Assembly (NCBI RefSeq): GCF_014077505.1
Contig: NZ_JACGWA010000001.1
Span: 992,001-1,056,000, forward strand
Source of the DNA: Colwellia sp. BRX10-3
Lineage (GTDB): Bacteria; Pseudomonadota; Gammaproteobacteria; Enterobacterales; Alteromonadaceae
Length of the DNA stretch: 64,000 bases
Direction of reading: 5' to 3'
The notes under the pieces are model-generated. The model ran no database searches, was not told the origin of the DNA, and was given only the letters and a program-made list of their open reading frames with translations. The stretch's first letter is position 1; each line of letters starts with the position of its first letter. Below, piece by piece: positions 6,176-14,571 of the stretch. The translations under genes were made by a program, and so were the position numbers.

Positions 6176-7440
6176 TGCAGGCAATAATCACCTCATGGTT
6201 AACTGAGCAAGGTGTTCATGCATCATACATAGCGTTGAGTGGCGTTATTATTGCTTGTCTGTTAATTTTTATATTATGCAGTATTAGCTTTTATATCGCT
6301 AAAAACTATGTGCTTGTGCTTATTCACAAATTAACCACCGCATCAAAAAACACTTGGGATGATGTATTATTTGATCATCAAGTTTTTTCCCGATTCTCGC
6401 TCCTTGTTCCATTTATATTATTGTTATTACTGACACCGTATTTCCTAGCAGCAGACTCCTTACTCGCCAATATACTGATAACTTTTGCCAAAATAGGCCT
6501 CTGCTTTCAGATTGCACGCACTATTAGCTCAGTGCTTAATGTGATAAATAATCTATATCGACAAACAGCTACCGAGCGCTACCTGCCGCTAAATTCCACC
6601 TTGCAGGTTATTAAACTTGTGGTGTATTTGGTCGCAACTATATTAGCAATTTCGCAAGTATTAGACCGTTCTCCACTCTACTTACTCAGTGGTTTAGGTG
6701 CTCTAACCGCGGTATTGATTCTAGTCTTCCAAGACACTATTAAAGGTTTGGTTGCCAGCATTCAAATATCGGCAAACAGAATGGTTGCGCCTGGCGATTG
6801 GATTGAATTACCTAAATATGGCGCCGACGGCGATGTTATCGAGATAGGCTTAAATACCGTAAAAGTTAAAAACTTTGATAATACCATCACAACAGTACCC
6901 ACTTATGCCTTAACCAGCGGCTCATTTAAAAACTGGCGGGGCATGTTGAGCTCAGGTGGTAGAAGAGTTAAGCGCGCTATTGTGATTGATGTTAGCAGTA
7001 TTCTATTCTATAACCAAGAACAGCTTGAAGCACTCGCATCAGTACAACTGATTACTGATTATCTTGCTGGCAAAAAAGCTGAAATTCTAAAACAAACGAG
7101 TGAAGTGGTAAGCGATAGTACCATTACAGCATCAACCATCAACACGCGGCAATTGACCAATATTGGCACCTTTAGAGCTTATATAAACGCCTATTTAAAA
7201 CAACACCCCAAGGTTCATCATGAGATGACCTGTATGGTCAGGCAATTACCTGCAACTGAGGTTGGCTTGCCGCTAGAATTATACTTTTTCAGTAGCGACC
7301 AAAATTGGGTTAACTATGAAGCGATACAAGCTGATATATTCGACCACCTATATGCAGCCGCACCACTTTTTGGCTTAAGAGTATTTCAACACCCCAGTGG
7401 CTTCGATTGGAAAAGCGAAAAGGCTAGCGCTGGCGCATAA
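6175..7440 (+). CDS. MscS-family mechanosensitive channel, YbdG-like
   Basis: This 421-residue inner-membrane channel has five or so hydrophobic helices in residues 15-200. The MscS pore/beta signature follows: LLSGLGALTAVLILVFQDTI, then GLVASIQISANRM, VAPGDWIELPKYGADGDVIE and TVPTYAL. A large C-terminal cytoplasmic part continues to the end. Length and the insertion of extra residues between the beta domain and the C terminus match YbdG/MscM better than small MscS. It is translationally coupled to yihG. Its last 17 bases overlap the end of tesB on the other strand. The role is osmotic down-shock protection by family; channel properties cannot be predicted. Confidence 0.85.
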   Translation: MQAIITSWLTEQGVHASYIALSGVIIACLLIFILCSISFYIAKNYVLVLIHKLTTASKNTWDDVLFDHQVFSRFSLLVPFILLLLLTPYFLAADSLLANILITFAKIGLCFQIARTISSVLNVINNLYRQTATERYLPLNSTLQVIKLVVYLVATILAISQVLDRSPLYLLSGLGALTAVLILVFQDTIKGLVASIQISANRMVAPGDWIELPKYGADGDVIEIGLNTVKVKNFDNTITTVPTYALTSGSFKNWRGMLSSGGRRVKRAIVIDVSSILFYNQEQLEALASVQLITDYLAGKKAEILKQTSEVVSDSTITASTINTRQLTNIGTFRAYINAYLKQHPKVHHEMTCMVRQLPATEVGLPLELYFFSSDQNWVNYEAIQADIFDHLYAAAPLFGLRVFQHPSGFDWKSEKASAGA

Positions 7441-8281
7441 CCCCTTCTTGCATAGTAGAGGCTACTAATAAACCTGCTTGGTTAAATATTTGGCCTCTTA
7501 CTAAGCCTCGCCCACCGCTCGCTGATGGGCTATCAATACAATAAAGTAGCCATTCGTCTATACGAAATGGTCGATGAAACCACATAGAGTGATCTATTGT
7601 GGCGAGTTGAAAATTGGGCTGCCAATAACTTACCCCATGAGGAAACAAAGCGGTTGGCAGAAAAGAAAAGTCCGAAGTATACGCTAGTAGATAAGTATGA
7701 ATACGAAGGTCATCAGGTAAGCTACCATTAGATTTTATCCACATTTGACATTTAGCATCAGTTTTTTCAGGTTTCAGCCAATTGTATTGCTCTACTGGTC
7801 TTGTTTCTATCGGTTTTTCAGATAAAAACTTACCGCGAATTTCCTCTGGAATAGACTCTTGGTTGTCAAAAATGAAATCTGTATATGACTTTAATTCGTC
7901 TGGTCCAGGCACCTGTGGCATAACATCTTGATGATCAAAGCCCTGCTCTTGCTGCTGAAATGAGGCGGTCATATAAAAAATAGCCTGACCATTTTGAATA
8001 GCGTTTACACGTCGAGTATTAAAACTACGGCCATCACGTATGTTTTCTACCTGGTAAACCACGGGTTTAGTAGCGTCCCCTGGCCTGAGAAAATATGAAT
8101 GTAATGAATGAACGTTATGGGTTGCTGCCACAGTTTCTTGCGCTGCTGACAATGCCTGTCCCATAACTTGACCACCAAATAAAGCTTTAAAGCCTAAATC
8201 TTGGCTTTCTCCGCGGTAAATTCCTTGCTCTATTACTTCTAATTTTAACAACGCAGAAAGATCGTTTAACACCTGACTCAT
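7424..8281 (-). CDS. tesB: Acyl-CoA thioesterase II
   Basis: TesB hydrolyses medium- and long-chain acyl-CoA to fatty acid and CoA in the cytosol. The 285-residue protein shows the double hot-dog layout with strong TesB landmarks: FGGQVMGQALSAA, LHSYFLRPGD, FYMTASFQ, IDHSMWFHRPF (catalytic Asp) and the end LVASTMQEGVMR. The ATG at 8281 gives the family start MSQVL; an upstream in-frame GTG at 8293 would add four residues. The gene converges on the YbdG-like channel with a 17-base overlap of coding ends. Confidence 0.94.
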   Translation of the reverse strand: MSQVLNDLSALLKLEVIEQGIYRGESQDLGFKALFGGQVMGQALSAAQETVAATHNVHSLHSYFLRPGDATKPVVYQVENIRDGRSFNTRRVNAIQNGQAIFYMTASFQQQEQGFDHQDVMPQVPGPDELKSYTDFIFDNQESIPEEIRGKFLSEKPIETRPVEQYNWLKPEKTDAKCQMWIKSNGSLPDDLRIHTYLLAYTSDFSFLPTALFPHGVSYWQPNFQLATIDHSMWFHRPFRIDEWLLYCIDSPSASGGRGLVRGQIFNQAGLLVASTMQEGVMRQR

Positions 8282-8535
8282 AAAAATATTCACTCTAATT
8301 AACCGTGACTAATTAACCGTATTATAACCTGCTATGGCTTTAAAAATAACGTAATAAATCTTTAAACCTATACTTTTGACAGAACATCAGTAACAAACCA
8401 TCTAAACTTAGCGATAAAGTAGGTGGCAAAAAATAGCATTAACTGTTGATCTTAACAAAGATCTAAGTTATGTTGCTAGCATCAGACGTATTGTATGAAA
8501 TTACTACGCATAATTAACGTTGAAAAGAGGCCATT

Positions 8536-8925: not shown

Positions 8926-10761
8926 CTATATCTTAGTTCCACTGCCCTCACTCAATCGAGAAAGAAAAACGTATGGGTCAATATCTTGGATGCTTGGTGA
9001 ATTAATCGAAAAATTTACCTTAACCGAAAAATCTCCCAGGTTAGCAAAAAACCGAGTTTTTATTGCCTGCTTTATTCGAGTAAATTTAATTAATACCTGC
9101 TCTGGCGTTTGATGTGGACATAAAAACAAGTACTCGCCAGCACTAATAACGCCTGCATAGTCTTCCTCATCAATATTTTCATTAATAATAATAGCTATCA
9201 CTTGACTGACATCGGTTAAAATTTTCCGATTAAAACGGAAACTGAGGTCTTGCCAGTTTTCAACTTTTAAATATGCTACAGAAATATTATATTGATACTT
9301 TCTTGCCATTTTATATTGCTGTTTATACCAACGCTTAGTTTGAACGGGTTGTGCTAACTGGTTTTTAGGTAACTCTATTTCATCGTAGCTACGATGAAGT
9401 TTTTGACGGTGCACTTGAAAACGACAATAAATTATAAAAATTACGCTGCAACTTAATATTGCACTTAGCAATATAATCAACATTCTTTGTTGATTATATT
9501 TTTCACTAAACTCCAAACTCAATTGACTTTGTTCAACCAAATTCAAGGCCAAATTTTTTGCTTTATTACGTGTTGATGTTGCAGTAGAAACGAATGAATT
9601 TTTTACACTAATATTTGGATATAACCCTTGATACAAGGCCAAGTAATGCTTTTGTGCTTCGGTGGCCTGCTCAAATTGCTTTTGCGCACTGTAATATTCT
9701 GTTAGCAATAAAAACAATTCTATTTGTTGTGGTGATAATACTAAATTTTCGGCGACAGATTCAGCTGTCAGCAATATAGAATCAGCTTCTTCATGCTCAC
9801 CTAATGCATACATAACTTTTACTAAGGCAATTTGTGTTGATAATTTAACCCGTACTAAATTATGCTGATTAAACACTGCTTGGGCATGAAGTAAACGCGC
9901 TTTTGCCGGCCTAAATTGCTGTTGTTTATATAGTACTTGCCCTAAACCAAGCTCTGCATAGGCTTCTCGAATATTGAGTTTATATTGCTTGGCGAATTGT
10001 AACGACTGCCAAAAAGCATTATAGGCGTCATCATATTGCTGTAATTGATAATAGGCATTTGCGACTAAATGATAGCTTCGAGCAATACCTTCTGTTCTCG
10101 ACATATCTGTACGTAATTTTAAAACGCGATTAAGCAGTTCAACAGCATTGTCATATTCTGATAAATAAAAATGCGCTTCTGCAATAATTTCTAATAAGGT
10201 GATCTGATCGACATTTTGTTGGTTTTGGCTCAGTAGGCGTTCAACTTTACTCAACTCTTTTACTGCTCGGCCATAATCAGCACTTAGGGCATAGGCCACA
10301 ACAGAATAAGCAAGTGCCTGCAAATGATAATTCATATTATTTGCTTGCTCAGCCAACCTTGCTGCTTTTTGAGAGGTATCTCTTAGCTGAATGTATTCAC
10401 CTTGCGCATAATAGCCGCGCGCAATTTTCAATAATAGATCTAGTTGTATAACCACATCAGTTTTATTTGTTTCACTACCATATTGAGCAAATTGAAATGC
10501 CACGACCAAATTGCCGCGATTAAAGGCAACATCCGACAATAAGGAAAAGGCTCTCGCAATCATATTTTGACTATACTGGCTACGGTTGCTTATAACGGCT
10601 TGAGCAATATCGACAACATCTTGGGTAATCAATAATTCTTTATCTTGAAGATAGTAAGTTTTAAGCAATTGTTGATAGTTTTTATCACCGCTAACCGAAT
10701 CCGCTTTAGCGGTAAGGGTGATAAAAAAACTTATTAAAATACCCAGCAGCACTCGCTTCAT
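8926..10761 (-). CDS. TPR sensor protein with a degenerate GGDEF-like domain
   Basis: This 611-residue protein has a signal peptide (residues 1-20, ending TAKA), a periplasmic array of tetratricopeptide-like repeats (about 30-400; for example ARSYHLVANAYYQLQQYDDAYNAFWQSLQF), one membrane helix at about 425-445, and a cytoplasmic C-terminal domain of about 140 residues. That domain has the spacing of a GGDEF fold, but the active site reads SAGEYLF where GGDEF would stand, and no RxxD inhibitory site is visible. It is probably catalytically dead for c-di-GMP synthesis and may act as a binding or interaction module. The same layout occurs in TPR-containing diguanylate cyclases of Alteromonadales. 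It is transcribed away from a c-di-GMP riboswitch starting about 270 bases upstream, which makes a signalling link plausible but unproven. Confidence 0.75.
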   Translation of the reverse strand: MKRVLLGILISFFITLTAKADSVSGDKNYQQLLKTYYLQDKELLITQDVVDIAQAVISNRSQYSQNMIARAFSLLSDVAFNRGNLVVAFQFAQYGSETNKTDVVIQLDLLLKIARGYYAQGEYIQLRDTSQKAARLAEQANNMNYHLQALAYSVVAYALSADYGRAVKELSKVERLLSQNQQNVDQITLLEIIAEAHFYLSEYDNAVELLNRVLKLRTDMSRTEGIARSYHLVANAYYQLQQYDDAYNAFWQSLQFAKQYKLNIREAYAELGLGQVLYKQQQFRPAKARLLHAQAVFNQHNLVRVKLSTQIALVKVMYALGEHEEADSILLTAESVAENLVLSPQQIELFLLLTEYYSAQKQFEQATEAQKHYLALYQGLYPNISVKNSFVSTATSTRNKAKNLALNLVEQSQLSLEFSEKYNQQRMLIILLSAILSCSVIFIIYCRFQVHRQKLHRSYDEIELPKNQLAQPVQTKRWYKQQYKMARKYQYNISVAYLKVENWQDLSFRFNRKILTDVSQVIAIIINENIDEEDYAGVISAGEYLFLCPHQTPEQVLIKFTRIKQAIKTRFFANLGDFSVKVNFSINSPSIQDIDPYVFLSRLSEGSGTKI

Positions 10762-11033
10762 TGCAGGTTTATTTCCATATTGTAGGTAAAGACAGTTTAT
10801 CTTTTAGGGTTAAAGTTAATTAAATATAAAGTAGTTTAATTGTAAAACAGCTTTTTTGCTTGATTCGCAAAACCTAGAGCGGCCATAAAATAGTCTGTAA
10901 AAACAGGCTTAGCTAACGATTTAAATATCAAAATCCTACTGTAAAAGTCATTTAGTAAAAACAACAACTACGAATAAATCACTTACTATTTAATATGTTA
11001 ACGCAAATTTCATACTGAGCATATTAAAAGTAG

Positions 11034-11061
11034 TTTACAAATGAAATACTTTGCCTATAAT
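11034..11061 (+). promoter_or_regulatory. Sigma-70 promoter of the c-di-GMP riboswitch transcript
   Basis: A -35 box TTTACA (11034-11039), a 16-base spacer and a perfect -10 box TATAAT (11056-11061). Transcription would start near 11067, exactly where the first stem of the riboswitch begins. The fit between start and aptamer argues that both are functional. Confidence 0.75.
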
Positions 11062-11065
11062 CGGT

Positions 11066-11160
11066 GTTGAGCTTCTAAAGCTCGACAAGGGCAAATCCAG
11101 TGAAAACTGGAGACGCAAAGTTACCGATCTAAGGGGAAACCTATGATAGCGGAACTGCCA
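11066..11160 (+). promoter_or_regulatory. Cyclic di-GMP-I (GEMM) riboswitch aptamer
   Basis: The RNA shows the GEMM core: a leading stem (GTTGAGC 11066-11072 with GCTCGAC 11080-11086), AGGGCAAA, a 6-bp stem TCCAGT/ACTGGA closed by a GAAA tetraloop (11102-11105), then GACGCAAAG. Next comes a stem GTT(A)CCG (11120-11126) with CGGAAC (11150-11155), enclosing CTAAGG and CCTATGATAGC, the tetraloop-receptor-like part. These are the conserved elements of the class I c-di-GMP aptamer as I know it. No gene follows on the same strand: the next coding region, the DUF885 lipoprotein, is convergent. See the findings for the competing stem and short ORF. Confidence 0.87.
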
Positions 11161-11228
11161 AATTTAGATATAGTGGGGGCTTATCTTAATTTATCGGTTC
11201 GCCATTATAATCTCTGGTAACTTTGCGT
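11113..11228 (+). promoter_or_regulatory. Competing 13-bp stem: candidate riboswitch expression platform
   Basis: ACGCAAAGTTACC (11113-11125), part of the conserved aptamer core, is perfectly complementary to GGTAACTTTGCGT (11216-11228). Formation of this long-range stem would destroy the ligand-binding fold, so the two structures are mutually exclusive. No T run follows, so it is not an ordinary intrinsic terminator; translational, Rho-linked or processing control is possible. Confidence 0.6.
11143..11220 (+). CDS. Possible 25-residue peptide encoded inside the riboswitch transcript
   Basis: An ATG lying inside the aptamer (in CCTATGATAGC) opens a 25-codon frame ending in TAA at 11218-11220. 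The product begins MIAELPNLDIV and ends RHYNLW. An AAGGGG, usable as a ribosome site, lies about 6 bases before the ATG. The stop codon sits within the 3' strand of the competing stem, so translation would interfere with that stem. With so short a frame, chance is a serious alternative. Confidence 0.25.
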   Translation: MIAELPNLDIVGAYLNLSVRHYNLW

Positions 11229-11285
11229 GCCATCCTTTGTTCCTGCACTAAATCATACCAAACACACTAAAATTCATAGCAAAAA

Positions 11286-13073
11286 TTAATTTGGTGTTAT
11301 TTCTAATAACGCTTTCTGTTCAACCTTTTTATCTGCAACATATTCAATAATCACTGTTTCTAACATGGAAAGGGGCATTGAACCATTTTTCAAAATTTGA
11401 TCGTGAAACTCTCTTAAATCAAATGTTTCACCTAAAGCTTTCTCAGCCATTTTACGTAGCTTTTTAATGGTTAATTCACCCATTTTATAAGACAACGCTT
11501 GGCCAGGCCATGAGATATAACGGTCAATTTCAGTCTTTACGTTATGCAGTGATAATGCCGTATTATCTGCTAAATAATTCATCGCTCGCTCACGACTCCA
11601 ACCTTTTGCATGCATGCCGGTATCAACCACTAGTCGGCAAGCTCGCCACATTTCATAGGTTAACCGACCAAAATCACTATAAGGATTTTGATAAAATCCG
11701 GCCTCTAAACCTAAGTATTCAGAGTAAAGTCCCCAACCTTCGCCAAACGCCGAAATGTAAGTATTATTTCTAAACTTAGGAACATTCTCCATTTCTCGAG
11801 CAATGGAACCTTGTAAATGATGACCTGGCACTGCCTCATGCAAAGTTAACGCCTCTAAAACGTATAATGGACGACGATCTAGGCGATAGGTATTTACCCA
11901 ATAGTTGCCTGCCTGATCATCGCGTGAGGGGCCAGAATATCGTCCTGTGGTGTATTTAGGCGCAATATTGGCTGGTACTTCAATAACGCCATAAGGTGTA
12001 CGAGGTAAGGTTTTAAATAATTTAGGTAATTGAGCGTCCATCTTTTTGGCTATAAAGGATGCTTCTTTTAGTAAACCTTCAGGGCTTGTCGCATAAAACT
12101 GTTTATCGGTACGCAAAAAATGAACAAAATCAGCAAAACTACCTGTAAAGCCTAATTGCTTAATAATAGTGTCCATTTCAAGCCTGATCCTCTGTACTTC
12201 TGCTAAACCTGTGTTATGTACTTCATCAACTGAAATGGGCAAAGTAGTATAATGCTGCAACCTGTTGAAATAATAACTGTCGCCATTAGGTAAAGAGCTG
12301 GCAGCGATATTCGTTCTCGCATTTGGCTGGTAACGATGCAACATATAATCAAAGTATTTTTGATAGCTTGGCATAACAACCTGTAAAATTGTCTTAGTGG
12401 CTTGTGCCTGTAAGTCTGATTTAAGTGCTTGAGAAAAATACTCAGGCATGACTAAAAATGGTTGATAATAAATGCTTGACGCTGCATCAGTTTGTATAAA
12501 AGCTTTAATCGACTCTTCAAAACCTTGTAATACAATTTTAGGTTGTGTTATTTCCTCTTCAATGCCCTTATCCATCCAATACATTTGTTGCGAAAAATAT
12601 GTTGGCAACGCATTTAGTCGAGCGAGATAGTCACGATAATCTTGTTCTGTTTTAAAGCTGACTTGGCTTTTAATGCGACTGATCCAAACATGAAAGCCTG
12701 ACTCTGCTGTTAGCGGCATGTAATGCTCTTTGTTGGTATAACTATCAAGTTGATTCTTCATGGTATACAACAATACAGCGTGATTGATTTTCTCACTCTG
12801 ATTAAGCTTTTGAGCTGAAATCAGTGCTAAACGTTGATAAATAGCAAACAAAGCTTGATGCTGTTGTTTGAGTGTATTGGGGGATAAATCAGGTAATTGG
12901 CTGTTAGTCTCGCCAGCAATATCTTGATTAAACGGACTTTGCTGCTCTTTAAAGTGCTGGTAGTCTTTAATTACCTGCTCAAGATCATGGCTCACTGATG
13001 CCACTTTAAGCGTAGGAGACTGACAAGATATAATAAAAAATAGTACAAAAATCGTGATTGAAAACACTTTCAT
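11286..13073 (-). CDS. DUF885 lipoprotein, putative metallopeptidase-like
   Basis: This 595-residue DUF885 protein has a lipoprotein signal (residues 1-17, lipobox IISC), so it is probably anchored in the envelope. The family signature LHEAVPGHHLQ (about residues 413-423) resembles a zinc-binding HExxxGHH motif, with a downstream conserved GEGWGLYSEYLG providing the likely third ligand. Near the end, DNTALSLHNVKTEIDRYISW and GQALSYKMGELTI are further family blocks. The family is thought to be peptidase-like, but substrates are generally unknown. The 3' end faces the orphan riboswitch transcript, which would run antisense into it if not terminated. Confidence 0.85.
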   Translation of the reverse strand: MKVFSITIFVLFFIISCQSPTLKVASVSHDLEQVIKDYQHFKEQQSPFNQDIAGETNSQLPDLSPNTLKQQHQALFAIYQRLALISAQKLNQSEKINHAVLLYTMKNQLDSYTNKEHYMPLTAESGFHVWISRIKSQVSFKTEQDYRDYLARLNALPTYFSQQMYWMDKGIEEEITQPKIVLQGFEESIKAFIQTDAASSIYYQPFLVMPEYFSQALKSDLQAQATKTILQVVMPSYQKYFDYMLHRYQPNARTNIAASSLPNGDSYYFNRLQHYTTLPISVDEVHNTGLAEVQRIRLEMDTIIKQLGFTGSFADFVHFLRTDKQFYATSPEGLLKEASFIAKKMDAQLPKLFKTLPRTPYGVIEVPANIAPKYTTGRYSGPSRDDQAGNYWVNTYRLDRRPLYVLEALTLHEAVPGHHLQGSIAREMENVPKFRNNTYISAFGEGWGLYSEYLGLEAGFYQNPYSDFGRLTYEMWRACRLVVDTGMHAKGWSRERAMNYLADNTALSLHNVKTEIDRYISWPGQALSYKMGELTIKKLRKMAEKALGETFDLREFHDQILKNGSMPLSMLETVIIEYVADKKVEQKALLEITPN

Positions 13074-13557
13074 GACAAAATCTCAAATATTAATTTAAAT
13101 AGAAAACGCAGTAATTAAATACCATAACAAAAGATAAGTATTTATAAAGATAATATTTATCTCACACAATAATTTTACAGTTACGCACTTTTGTGCCTGC
13201 CATTTCAAGCGACAGAGTTATTCCACTCAAAGATTAGTTACTCAGCCACATGGTTCCAAACTTAAACTTTGTATTAAAATCATTGCAGACAAGTTATGGA
13301 CTCAAGAGACACAATGCTTGGTAAATTTAGAACGAAGTAAAATGTTAGCGCCAAAAGTCGTTATTACATTGCTAAATCAATAACACAGCTGATCTGCATT
13401 TATCGGTGCGAAAACAGAAAGATAGCTTAGAAGTTGCAGTGTTTTGACAGTTTTAGCGCTATTTTTAATACTATTTAATGTAGCACTTTCACTCAAATTA
13501 TTAGAGAATAGCGCAACAGCTATTATTAGCGAATACCGTAGGTGAAAGGTTGGAATA
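13074..13557. other. Intergenic region between the divergent DUF885 and diguanylate cyclase genes
   Basis: About 480 bases with no convincing gene. It contains the probable promoter of the diguanylate cyclase at 13444-13472 and must contain the DUF885 promoter. I saw no riboswitch core, long repeat or terminator in it. Confidence 0.5.
13444..13472 (+). promoter_or_regulatory. Candidate sigma-70 promoter of the diguanylate cyclase
   Basis: A consensus -35 box TTGACA (13444-13449), a 17-base spacer and AATACT (13467-13472, four of six matches to TATAAT). It lies about 85 bases upstream of the GTG start. The -35 is exact; the -10 is only fair. Confidence 0.4.
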
Positions 13558-14571
13558 GTGAAGTACCATGATTCCATAGAACAAGCAGAACAAAAAATGC
13601 ACGCCGCCATAAAACAATTGCAGTTATGGCATATACCTGCGACGCCTATTAATTACGCGGTAAGTTACGGCTATCTTAATAAACACTCAAAACTGCTTAA
13701 TGCCACGATTGAAAAACAGTTAGCCACCGGCAAAAAACTTGATAACTTCTTTTTAGAAGAAGTATATAAACAATATGTTTTAGGGCAAAGCGCCTTTAGA
13801 GGCGAGTTAATTGACGATCTCGATGAAGTATTAATCGACTTGCAAGCCAACAGTAAAAAATCTTCCCTTTGCACAAGGCGTCTAATGACTCAATTAGACA
13901 ATAATATTGCCAGTTTAAAGTCTACTGATAAACACGAAATATTGACCGCAATTAAACAAATACGCCAAACGACTCAGCACTTCAAACTTGAACAAGAAAA
14001 ACTCGCTGAGCAACTTCTCTTGTCACAAAAATCAACAGAAGTATTACGTTCAGAATTAGACGATGTAAAAAAAGAAATTTATTTAGACCCTTTAACCGGA
14101 CTATATAATCGTAAAGCCATGACGAAGCATTTAGAGCTTTGGTTGTCTGATGATCCAAATAAACAGGTCGCGGCAATCGTTATTAATATTGATCAATTTT
14201 CTCAGATGAATGCAAGCTTAGGTCCCTTAATCAGCGATGTATTACTGAAAAAAATAGCCCAAAAAGTCAGTAATTATGTTGATGAAAGTGGCTTGCCAAT
14301 ACGATCTGGCGGTGATGAGTTTTTGATATTACTACCTGATGTTAAGCGTATGATTGCTGGAGAGGTTGCTGAAAAAATTCGACAAAGCGTAGAGAAATTA
14401 AGATTTATCACCAGCAAATCAGGTACTCGTTTACCACAAATAACCCTCAGTATTGGTGTTAGCGATTATAATGTCGCTACAAGTGCTAATAATATTATAA
14501 ACCAAACTCGTGCACTGCTTAGCGATAATACTAATAGCCAAACGAATCATGTTAAAGTTGCTAATAATTAG
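13558..14571 (+). CDS. Diguanylate cyclase (cytosolic GGDEF protein)
   Basis: This 337-residue protein would make c-di-GMP from two GTP. The C-terminal GGDEF domain starts at DPLTGLYNRKAM (about residue 178) and contains the intact active-site loop RSGGDEFLIL (about 243-252) and LSIGVSDY. No RxxD inhibitory site stands five residues before GGDEF, so product inhibition by that route is unlikely. The first 150 residues are a helical regulatory region (WHIPATPINYAVSYGYLNKH) seen ahead of many marine GGDEF domains, followed by a coiled coil. There is no membrane segment. GTG start with a weak AGGT ribosome site. Confidence 0.88.
   Translation: MKYHDSIEQAEQKMHAAIKQLQLWHIPATPINYAVSYGYLNKHSKLLNATIEKQLATGKKLDNFFLEEVYKQYVLGQSAFRGELIDDLDEVLIDLQANSKKSSLCTRRLMTQLDNNIASLKSTDKHEILTAIKQIRQTTQHFKLEQEKLAEQLLLSQKSTEVLRSELDDVKKEIYLDPLTGLYNRKAMTKHLELWLSDDPNKQVAAIVINIDQFSQMNASLGPLISDVLLKKIAQKVSNYVDESGLPIRSGGDEFLILLPDVKRMIAGEVAEKIRQSVEKLRFITSKSGTRLPQITLSIGVSDYNVATSANNIINQTRALLSDNTNSQTNHVKVANN

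Follow-up and report, generated by a model that had tools for sequence, protein, structure and literature searches.

The c-di-GMP-I riboswitch usually forms the leader of a same-strand gene. The window analysed here, i.e. the whole stretch of 64,000 nucleotides from Colwellia sp. BRX10-3, contains such an aptamer behind a promoter-like sequence of its own and upstream of a gene that runs towards it, which raises the question of what this RNA controls and why it is kept.

Aptamer, promoter and adjacent genes

The plus strand of the window matches Rfam family RF01051 (c-di-GMP-I, GEMM-I) at 11080-11162 with 82.1 bits against a gathering threshold of 35 (E 1.2e-14). The match covers the full model (1-87), includes the GAAA tetraloop and the GACGCAAAG core, and is the sole gathering-level Rfam match across the 64 kb; it confirms the intact c-di-GMP-I aptamer that an earlier note had read from the sequence. 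The curated RF01051 cut-off exceeded here takes in both sequence and structure. A permissive Rfam scan of 10700-11600 returns, beyond the aptamer, just mir-21, far under its cut-off. The putative ligand-contacting positions G26, A52-A54 and C93 (L001 numbering), defined as the G before CAAA, the A in GCAAAG and the C of the closing GCC and taken by us to be the Vc2 equivalents, are invariant in 37 copies.

The promoter consists of TTTACA (11034-11039), 16 nucleotides and TATAAT (11056-11061), with 11 of 12 consensus matches, the top site within 9000-14000. Promoter-like sites in this region number 19, compared to 18.8 in shuffles, so the scan alone proves nothing; the promoter is accepted because it is conserved. 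The two hexamers, proposed earlier to start transcription at the first aptamer stem, each occur in 37 of the 42 copies examined in the family, with a spacing of 16 in 38, and mean pairwise identity of the promoter within the genus is 84%, against 50% directly upstream.

Two minus-strand genes border the RNA, both outside it: a divergent gene for a TPR protein (8926-10761) and a convergent DUF885 gene (11286-13073; PF05960, 561 bits), the stop codon of which lies ~45 nt from the RNA end, within the 500 nt applied to antisense-acting riboswitches. Pfam returns TPR-type families only for the TPR protein; by eye, this protein has a transmembrane-like stretch, and its C-terminal part looks like a GGDEF domain in degenerate form. 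Also outside the RNA, the first downstream gene on the plus strand that has a family match encodes a GGDEF protein (13558-14571; PF00990, 103.6 bits). It is 2.3 kb off, beyond DUF885, and is not a constant neighbour in relatives, so that no adjacent same-strand gene under control of the aptamer is found here, as the earlier note had maintained. The missing adjacent gene limits the term riboswitch in its strict cis sense and leaves the aptamer assignment unaffected.

The conserved RNA comprises 11066-11241 in model coordinates and extends both 5' and 3' of the Rfam aptamer. The feature originally placed at 11034-11230 is real; its extent was given too short, as the RNA continues to about 11241, and the G-loop hairpin and the anti-aptamer strand were missed. 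A 5' hairpin (UGAGCU-loop-AGCUCG, 11067-11085, plus strand as all parts named here) stands at the predicted start site. The aptamer is followed by the G-loop hairpin (11160-11192), with the helix AAATT-t-AGATA / TATCT-t-AATTT and an 11-nt loop, TAGTGGGGGCT, at 11171-11181. Next come a strand termed anti-P3 (11193-11215), which pairs with the aptamer P3 region in the rod fold described below, and the 13-nt anti-core GGTAACTTTGCGT (11216-11228), the exact reverse complement of aptamer positions 11113-11125. A pyrimidine-rich 3' tail (11229-11242) completes the rod by pairing with the 5' strand GACAAGGGC.

Distribution of the unit and its neighbours

A search with a covariance model built on all 176 positions of the unit gives one copy of at least 99.8 bits in each of 100 of the 395 sampled family genomes, in 18 genera; the next best score under this group is 80.6. 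Forty-two of these 100 strong copies were examined, 13 in the genus of the window and 29 from 17 other genera, for spread. All 42 possess GACGCAAAG and GGGGGC, and 40 possess GTGGGGGCT; 3' of the loop, TTTGC is present in 42 and CTTTGC in 41. The copies were chosen by model score, so part of their likeness is selected, the contrast with the flanks not. Within the genus, the aptamer and the G hairpin have mean pairwise identities of 94% and 93%, the anti-core and the 5' hairpin of 83% and 78%, and anti-P3 and the tail of 68% each; the flanks have 50% directly upstream and 34% directly downstream.

RF01051 has 42 matches in the genus, at least one in each of its 17 genomes and two in the genome of the window. 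A single copy that retains promoter, aptamer, loop and anti-core is found in the interval from the TPR gene to DUF885 in 13 of these 17 genomes. The genus has 29 further RF01051 matches, of which 17 were examined and 16 scored, and neither the G-loop nor TTTGCG is found in any of the 16; the core of L018 was not found. The second c-di-GMP-I aptamer in the genome of the window (L002, G000:C23:1968-2066, minus strand) resembles by eye the genus loci L021 and L023, where the aptamer is followed by a small gene whose product begins like a signal peptide, and would by its position be a conventional leader. Two further c-di-GMP-I aptamers lie ~600 nt apart and diverge (G013:C35:414126-414201, minus strand, and 414816-414891, plus strand).

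In an order sample of 394 genomes, 61 match at E 1e-10, and 49 of these lie outside the family (best 83.3 bits). None of 15 loci fetched from outside the family contains a five-G run after the aptamer core; TTTGC is present in three, and the core string was not found in one. Since they lack the G run, these loci appear to be aptamers that continue differently. A collection of 84,980 species' genomes has 49 stretches with an exact 20-mer of the hairpin, their record titles naming Colwellia, Cognaticolwellia, Thalassotalea, Litorilituus and Alteromonadaceae, and one exception, Endozoicomonas sp. G2_1. The record with this label (L144, NZ_JAGHQT010000005.1) carries the RNA, and the label is probably a naming error. 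Weaker relatives with 72 to 81 bits, L119 and L120 (g18) and L121 (g22), possess the GGGGGC loop and a different 3' part, are also convergent with DUF885 and may represent an earlier form of this RNA; the loop is absent from three other g18 matches.

The TPR gene is located upstream in 36 of the 42 copies, and DUF885 downstream in 28, including all 13 of the genus. In the 14 copies without DUF885, the aptamer core, the loop and the anti-core are kept. Both DUF885 states occur within each of the genera g25, g38 and g39. By parsimony on a TPR protein tree with 36 rows, the state has changed at least seven times, and starred branches force four of these changes. The comparison with relatives that the earlier note had proposed comes out in two ways: promoter and aptamer are kept, and 12 of the 14 DUF885-less loci continue with a GGDEF gene on the same strand, 122-335 nt downstream, an arrangement that the note had listed among the findings that would speak against it. 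The distance is 122 to 231 nt in nine loci with a start codon found by pattern, and 156 nt (L116), 234 nt (L107) and 335 nt (L106) by tblastn.

By eye, the GGDEF gene is preceded by a motif, GCACTTT ... TAGAGAAT, both with DUF885 (in the 13470-13520 region of the window, L091 and L104) and without it (L094, L097, L100 and L114). The same upstream motif is thus present in either arrangement, and the GGDEF gene seems to be under its own control there; the motif is perhaps its own promoter or operator. It was not seen by eye before the GGDEF gene in L098, L105, L108 and L115. The GGDEF gene accordingly does not look like a lost target of the riboswitch, and it is in L105 and L108 that a leader function may stand. 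No GGDEF gene was found within ~3 kb downstream in L096, L113 and five g52 loci. L096 has none of the TPR, DUF885 and GGDEF neighbours, and its RNA sits between genes that we take to be serA-like and rep-like. The next gene of L113 is convergent and presumably encodes an oligoribonuclease (orn), an enzyme that removes pGpG, the breakdown product of c-di-GMP. In L110 (g52), the upstream gene resembles by eye the product of window positions 7424-8293, and the other four g52 copies have an upstream reading frame of equal length (285 aa). The RNA is conserved as a unit independently of its neighbouring genes.

The reverse situation is found in four of the 17 genus genomes, which lack a strong copy and keep both the TPR and the DUF885 gene. 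Their DUF885 is 77-86% identical and free of stops, and the gap between the aligned TPR and DUF885 ends spans ~230 to 425 nt. The aptamer core and the G-loop are lost in all four gaps, Rfam gives no match there, and the anti-core TTTGCG is lost in three and remains in G004. The unit model still gives faint matches in the gaps of G004 (39.0 bits) and G012 (29.5 bits). In these species the RNA decays next to neighbours that persist, which indicates that neither DUF885 nor the TPR gene needs the RNA; loop and aptamer vanish together, which ties the loop to aptamer function.

Predicted competing folds of the RNA

Folding of 11067-11300 yields a long rod that dissolves the aptamer (MFE z -5.1; 0 of 200 shuffles as low). 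In every one of the 13 genus copies, the rod is 12.9 to 21.9 kcal/mol more stable than a fold constrained to the aptamer, in energies that leave out ligand and tertiary contacts. On the 13-copy genus alignment, 98.0% of the rod cells are paired and seven pairs are changed on both sides, each of them resting on one or two copies; this alignment had also served to derive the structure. On four of five measures, no shuffle out of 500 attains the value of the rod, and on the fifth 11 do; sliding the partner by 1-3 columns lowers the rod pairing to 31-41%. Three of the seven double-changed pairs are those of anti-P3, in the rod-only helices 6 and 7, and the others belong to the 5' hairpin, P2 and the G hairpin. 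Both the 5' hairpin, with two pairs changed on both sides, and the helix of the G-loop hairpin are paired in 100% of cells in the 13 copies. The aptamer alone has one pair changed on both sides, with 254 of 500 shuffles as high; it varies too little for this test.

The strands that would form the rod were also considered one by one. The exact anti-core complement of 13 nt is longer than any obtained by dinucleotide shuffling of the 83 nt downstream (2000 shuffles, maximum 12). When tail and 5' strand are swapped between copies (one per genus, 18 genera), own pairs are better by a mean of 1.2 kcal/mol, and six of 5000 swaps equal the own pairing. For anti-P3, swapped among all 42 copies, seven of 5000 are as good, in a run in which four tails were mis-set. 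Against the rod, RNAalifold on 37 copies prefers aptamer P3 and gives the tail a 5-bp GCAAA/TTTGC pairing, and anti-P3, the middle of the rod, has 35% identity over the 42 copies, which speaks against the rod outside the genus. The safe statement is that the anti-core and the closing strand are general, and that the full rod is clear in the genus of the window.

The G-loop hairpin is common to both predicted folds. The best partner of its loop outside the own hairpin lies at relative position 0.7-0.9 in 29 of the 42 copies and elsewhere in 13; a loop-tail pseudoknot finds no support in the g52 copy shown.

A probable standalone RNA and alternative readings

The loop complement AGCCCCCACT (a 10-mer) has 61 sites in the 17 genus genomes, 13 being the element itself and 48 lying outside it, compared to 16 sites of its reversed control, which has other dinucleotides. 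Thirty of the sites were inspected: six are the element, and 22 of the 24 others fall within open frames of at least 100 aa, counted stop to stop. None of the inspected sites recurs beside a start codon, and no trans target of the loop was found among the complementary sites of the 17 genomes. A conserved peptide from the loop, tried as the short peptide that the earlier note had offered, is rejected: GTG is present in 40 of 42 copies, but the frames starting from it run from 6 to 50 aa and are not conserved.

No general intrinsic terminator follows the RNA over the loci; by script, most loci do have some hairpin ahead of a T-rich stretch, as a rule a piece of the unit or a distant one. L118 has a clear intrinsic terminator within ~30 nt, and L120, with its different 3' part, a strong terminator-like hairpin. 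The best candidate of the window is weak (-6.0 kcal/mol, ~11293-11313) and lies within the terminal part of DUF885. Downstream of the unit, the first 60 nt consist of 43% T, 27% A, 21% C and 9% G (upstream control: 33% T, 38% A, 16% C and 12% G), a modest bias that, as a guess, would suit Rho.

The RNA is kept whole while its neighbours change, which suggests the RNA itself as the product. Judged from sequence comparison, the locus is probably a lineage-specific standalone gene for a c-di-GMP-responsive RNA of ~175-180 nt, the output of which would be the RNA and not a downstream gene. A regulatory RNA was among the options named earlier, and conservation of the unit independently of its neighbours supports it. 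With two competing folds, the putative RNA most likely acts in trans, like merRNA or Rli55 and unlike an mRNA leader, where a competition of folds would govern a terminator or a start site. The presence of the G-loop hairpin in both folds, the lack of a trans target among the sites inspected and the scarcity of clear intrinsic terminators count against this explanation.

In the proposed course of events, the aptamer would fold first as RNA polymerase leaves the promoter, and c-di-GMP binding would stabilise it during transcription. Without ligand, the anti-core strand, transcribed later, would displace the aptamer and lead to the long rod, in which the binding site is destroyed. The ligand would thereby set whether the 3' strand CUUUGCGUGCCAUCCUUU, in part similar to an anti-Shine-Dalgarno sequence, is exposed or hidden, and would probably influence the lifetime of the RNA as well, the rod being a likely RNase III substrate. 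Output in trans would come from the G-loop hairpin, the freed 3' strand or both, binding a partner RNA or protein, in analogy to the layout of Listeria Rli55 (a riboswitch plus a partner-binding hairpin) with c-di-GMP as the ligand. A narrower version is put forward tentatively and at less than even confidence, namely a ligand-gated trans sRNA in which c-di-GMP frees the 3' strand for ribosome-binding sites or for the aptamer cores of other c-di-GMP riboswitches, and the AGUGGGGGCU loop captures a partner.

Four other readings have to be weighed against the standalone RNA. As an antisense-acting riboswitch, the aptamer would let its ligand gate read-through into the 3' part of DUF885, with repression by collision or by duplex formation. 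The ~45 nt between the RNA end and the convergent stop codon suit this reading, as does the adjacency of DUF885 in 28 of 42 copies, in 13 of 13 of the genus and also in L119-L121. A survey (PMC9943018) moreover finds c-di-GMP riboswitches over-represented in antisense position, with 152 antisense and 2,554 sense cases, and cites a Colwellia gene as an example. The 14 copies that keep loop, anti-core and aptamer core without DUF885, and the four species that retain DUF885 with the RNA lost, run the other way: the convergent gene is not the conserved partner, the reading gives the G-loop no role, and antisense control of DUF885, considered in the earlier note, does not hold as the main cause of conservation. 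We regard the antisense reading as unlikely. A sink or reservoir for c-di-GMP, formed by a very abundant RNA as proposed for Bdellovibrio merRNA, would fit the near-consensus, conserved promoter, the standalone gene and the intact aptamer, and has its precedent in the portion of the merRNA report concerned (PMC3627812); yet a pure sink could do without an invariant G-loop and without an anti-aptamer strand by which the binding site is destroyed, and is rather unlikely.

A leader riboswitch of the GGDEF gene, separated from it by DUF885 in this genus, would account for the 12 DUF885-less loci in which this gene comes next, at 122-335 nt, and for L105 and L108, where the gene shows no separate upstream motif; feedback on a cyclase gene is plausible as well. 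It is at odds with the own upstream motif that the GGDEF gene shows by eye in seven regions, DUF885 intervening in some and missing in others, with the persistence of the RNA where no GGDEF gene lies within ~3 kb downstream (L096, L113 and five g52 loci), and with DUF885 intervening in the weaker g18 and g22 relatives too, and we consider it quite unlikely. That the RNA is a remnant of a riboswitch which lost its gene is very improbable: a target gene is indeed missing closely downstream here, but the full length is kept in 100 of 395 sampled family genomes, and true decay, visible in the four sister species, looks different, so that the original argument against decay holds.

The standalone RNA is compared below, by description, with RNAs reported from other bacteria. 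RF01051 riboswitches share its aptamer, and here a conserved G-loop hairpin and an anti-aptamer strand follow. According to a part of PMC3627812, merRNA of Bdellovibrio bacteriovorus is a standalone, very abundant c-di-GMP riboswitch RNA of 445 nt without a conserved downstream reading frame, for which its authors report no conservation outside the Bdellovibrio lineage and propose a c-di-GMP reservoir. An own promoter and the lack of a served reading frame, which mark the merRNA type, are likewise found at the present locus by sequence conservation. In contrast to the 445 nt and the single lineage of merRNA, the present RNA has ~176 nt with conserved extra parts and occurs in 18 genera of another family. 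Sections of PMC8079631 describe Listeria Rli55 as a B12 riboswitch joined to a protein-binding RNA, and SreA as a SAM riboswitch that also pairs in trans. Both resemble the proposed RNA in joining a riboswitch to a trans-acting RNA, via a protein-binding hairpin (Rli55) or base pairing (SreA), and differ from it in that, as described there, they have other ligands and use ligand-controlled termination. The G-loop hairpin would be the candidate partner-binding motif beside the aptamer, corresponding to that of Rli55.

Antisense-acting riboswitches, as treated in parts of PMC9943018 and, for AspocR, PMC8079631, share the orientation, with transcription heading for the 3' end of a gene that converges with them; the difference is that the riboswitch studied here is also kept where the convergent gene is missing. 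The survey names gene A3Q33_07785 of Colwellia sp. PAMC 21821 in a passage that gives no riboswitch class (PMC9943018), and this locus may equal the one described here, as a putative antisense-acting riboswitch. If so, the position was already noted, and neither the unit nor its independence from DUF885. In the open-access literature, which was the scope of the search as opposed to subscription journals, no title or abstract describes the RNA, and merRNA is the sole case found of a standalone c-di-GMP riboswitch RNA.

Riboswitches are regarded as acting in cis, and cases in which the riboswitch RNA forms the product are rare. For c-di-GMP, the case found in print, merRNA, comes from a single lineage, and storage has been proposed as its role (PMC3627812). 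The locus also carries a warning that convergent riboswitches should not be called antisense regulators by position alone. A conserved and compact example in free-living marine bacteria would make the action of a second messenger via a trans RNA testable. If the ligand-gated version is true, these bacteria would possess a lineage-wide second-messenger sRNA that relays c-di-GMP to distant genes without a protein receptor.
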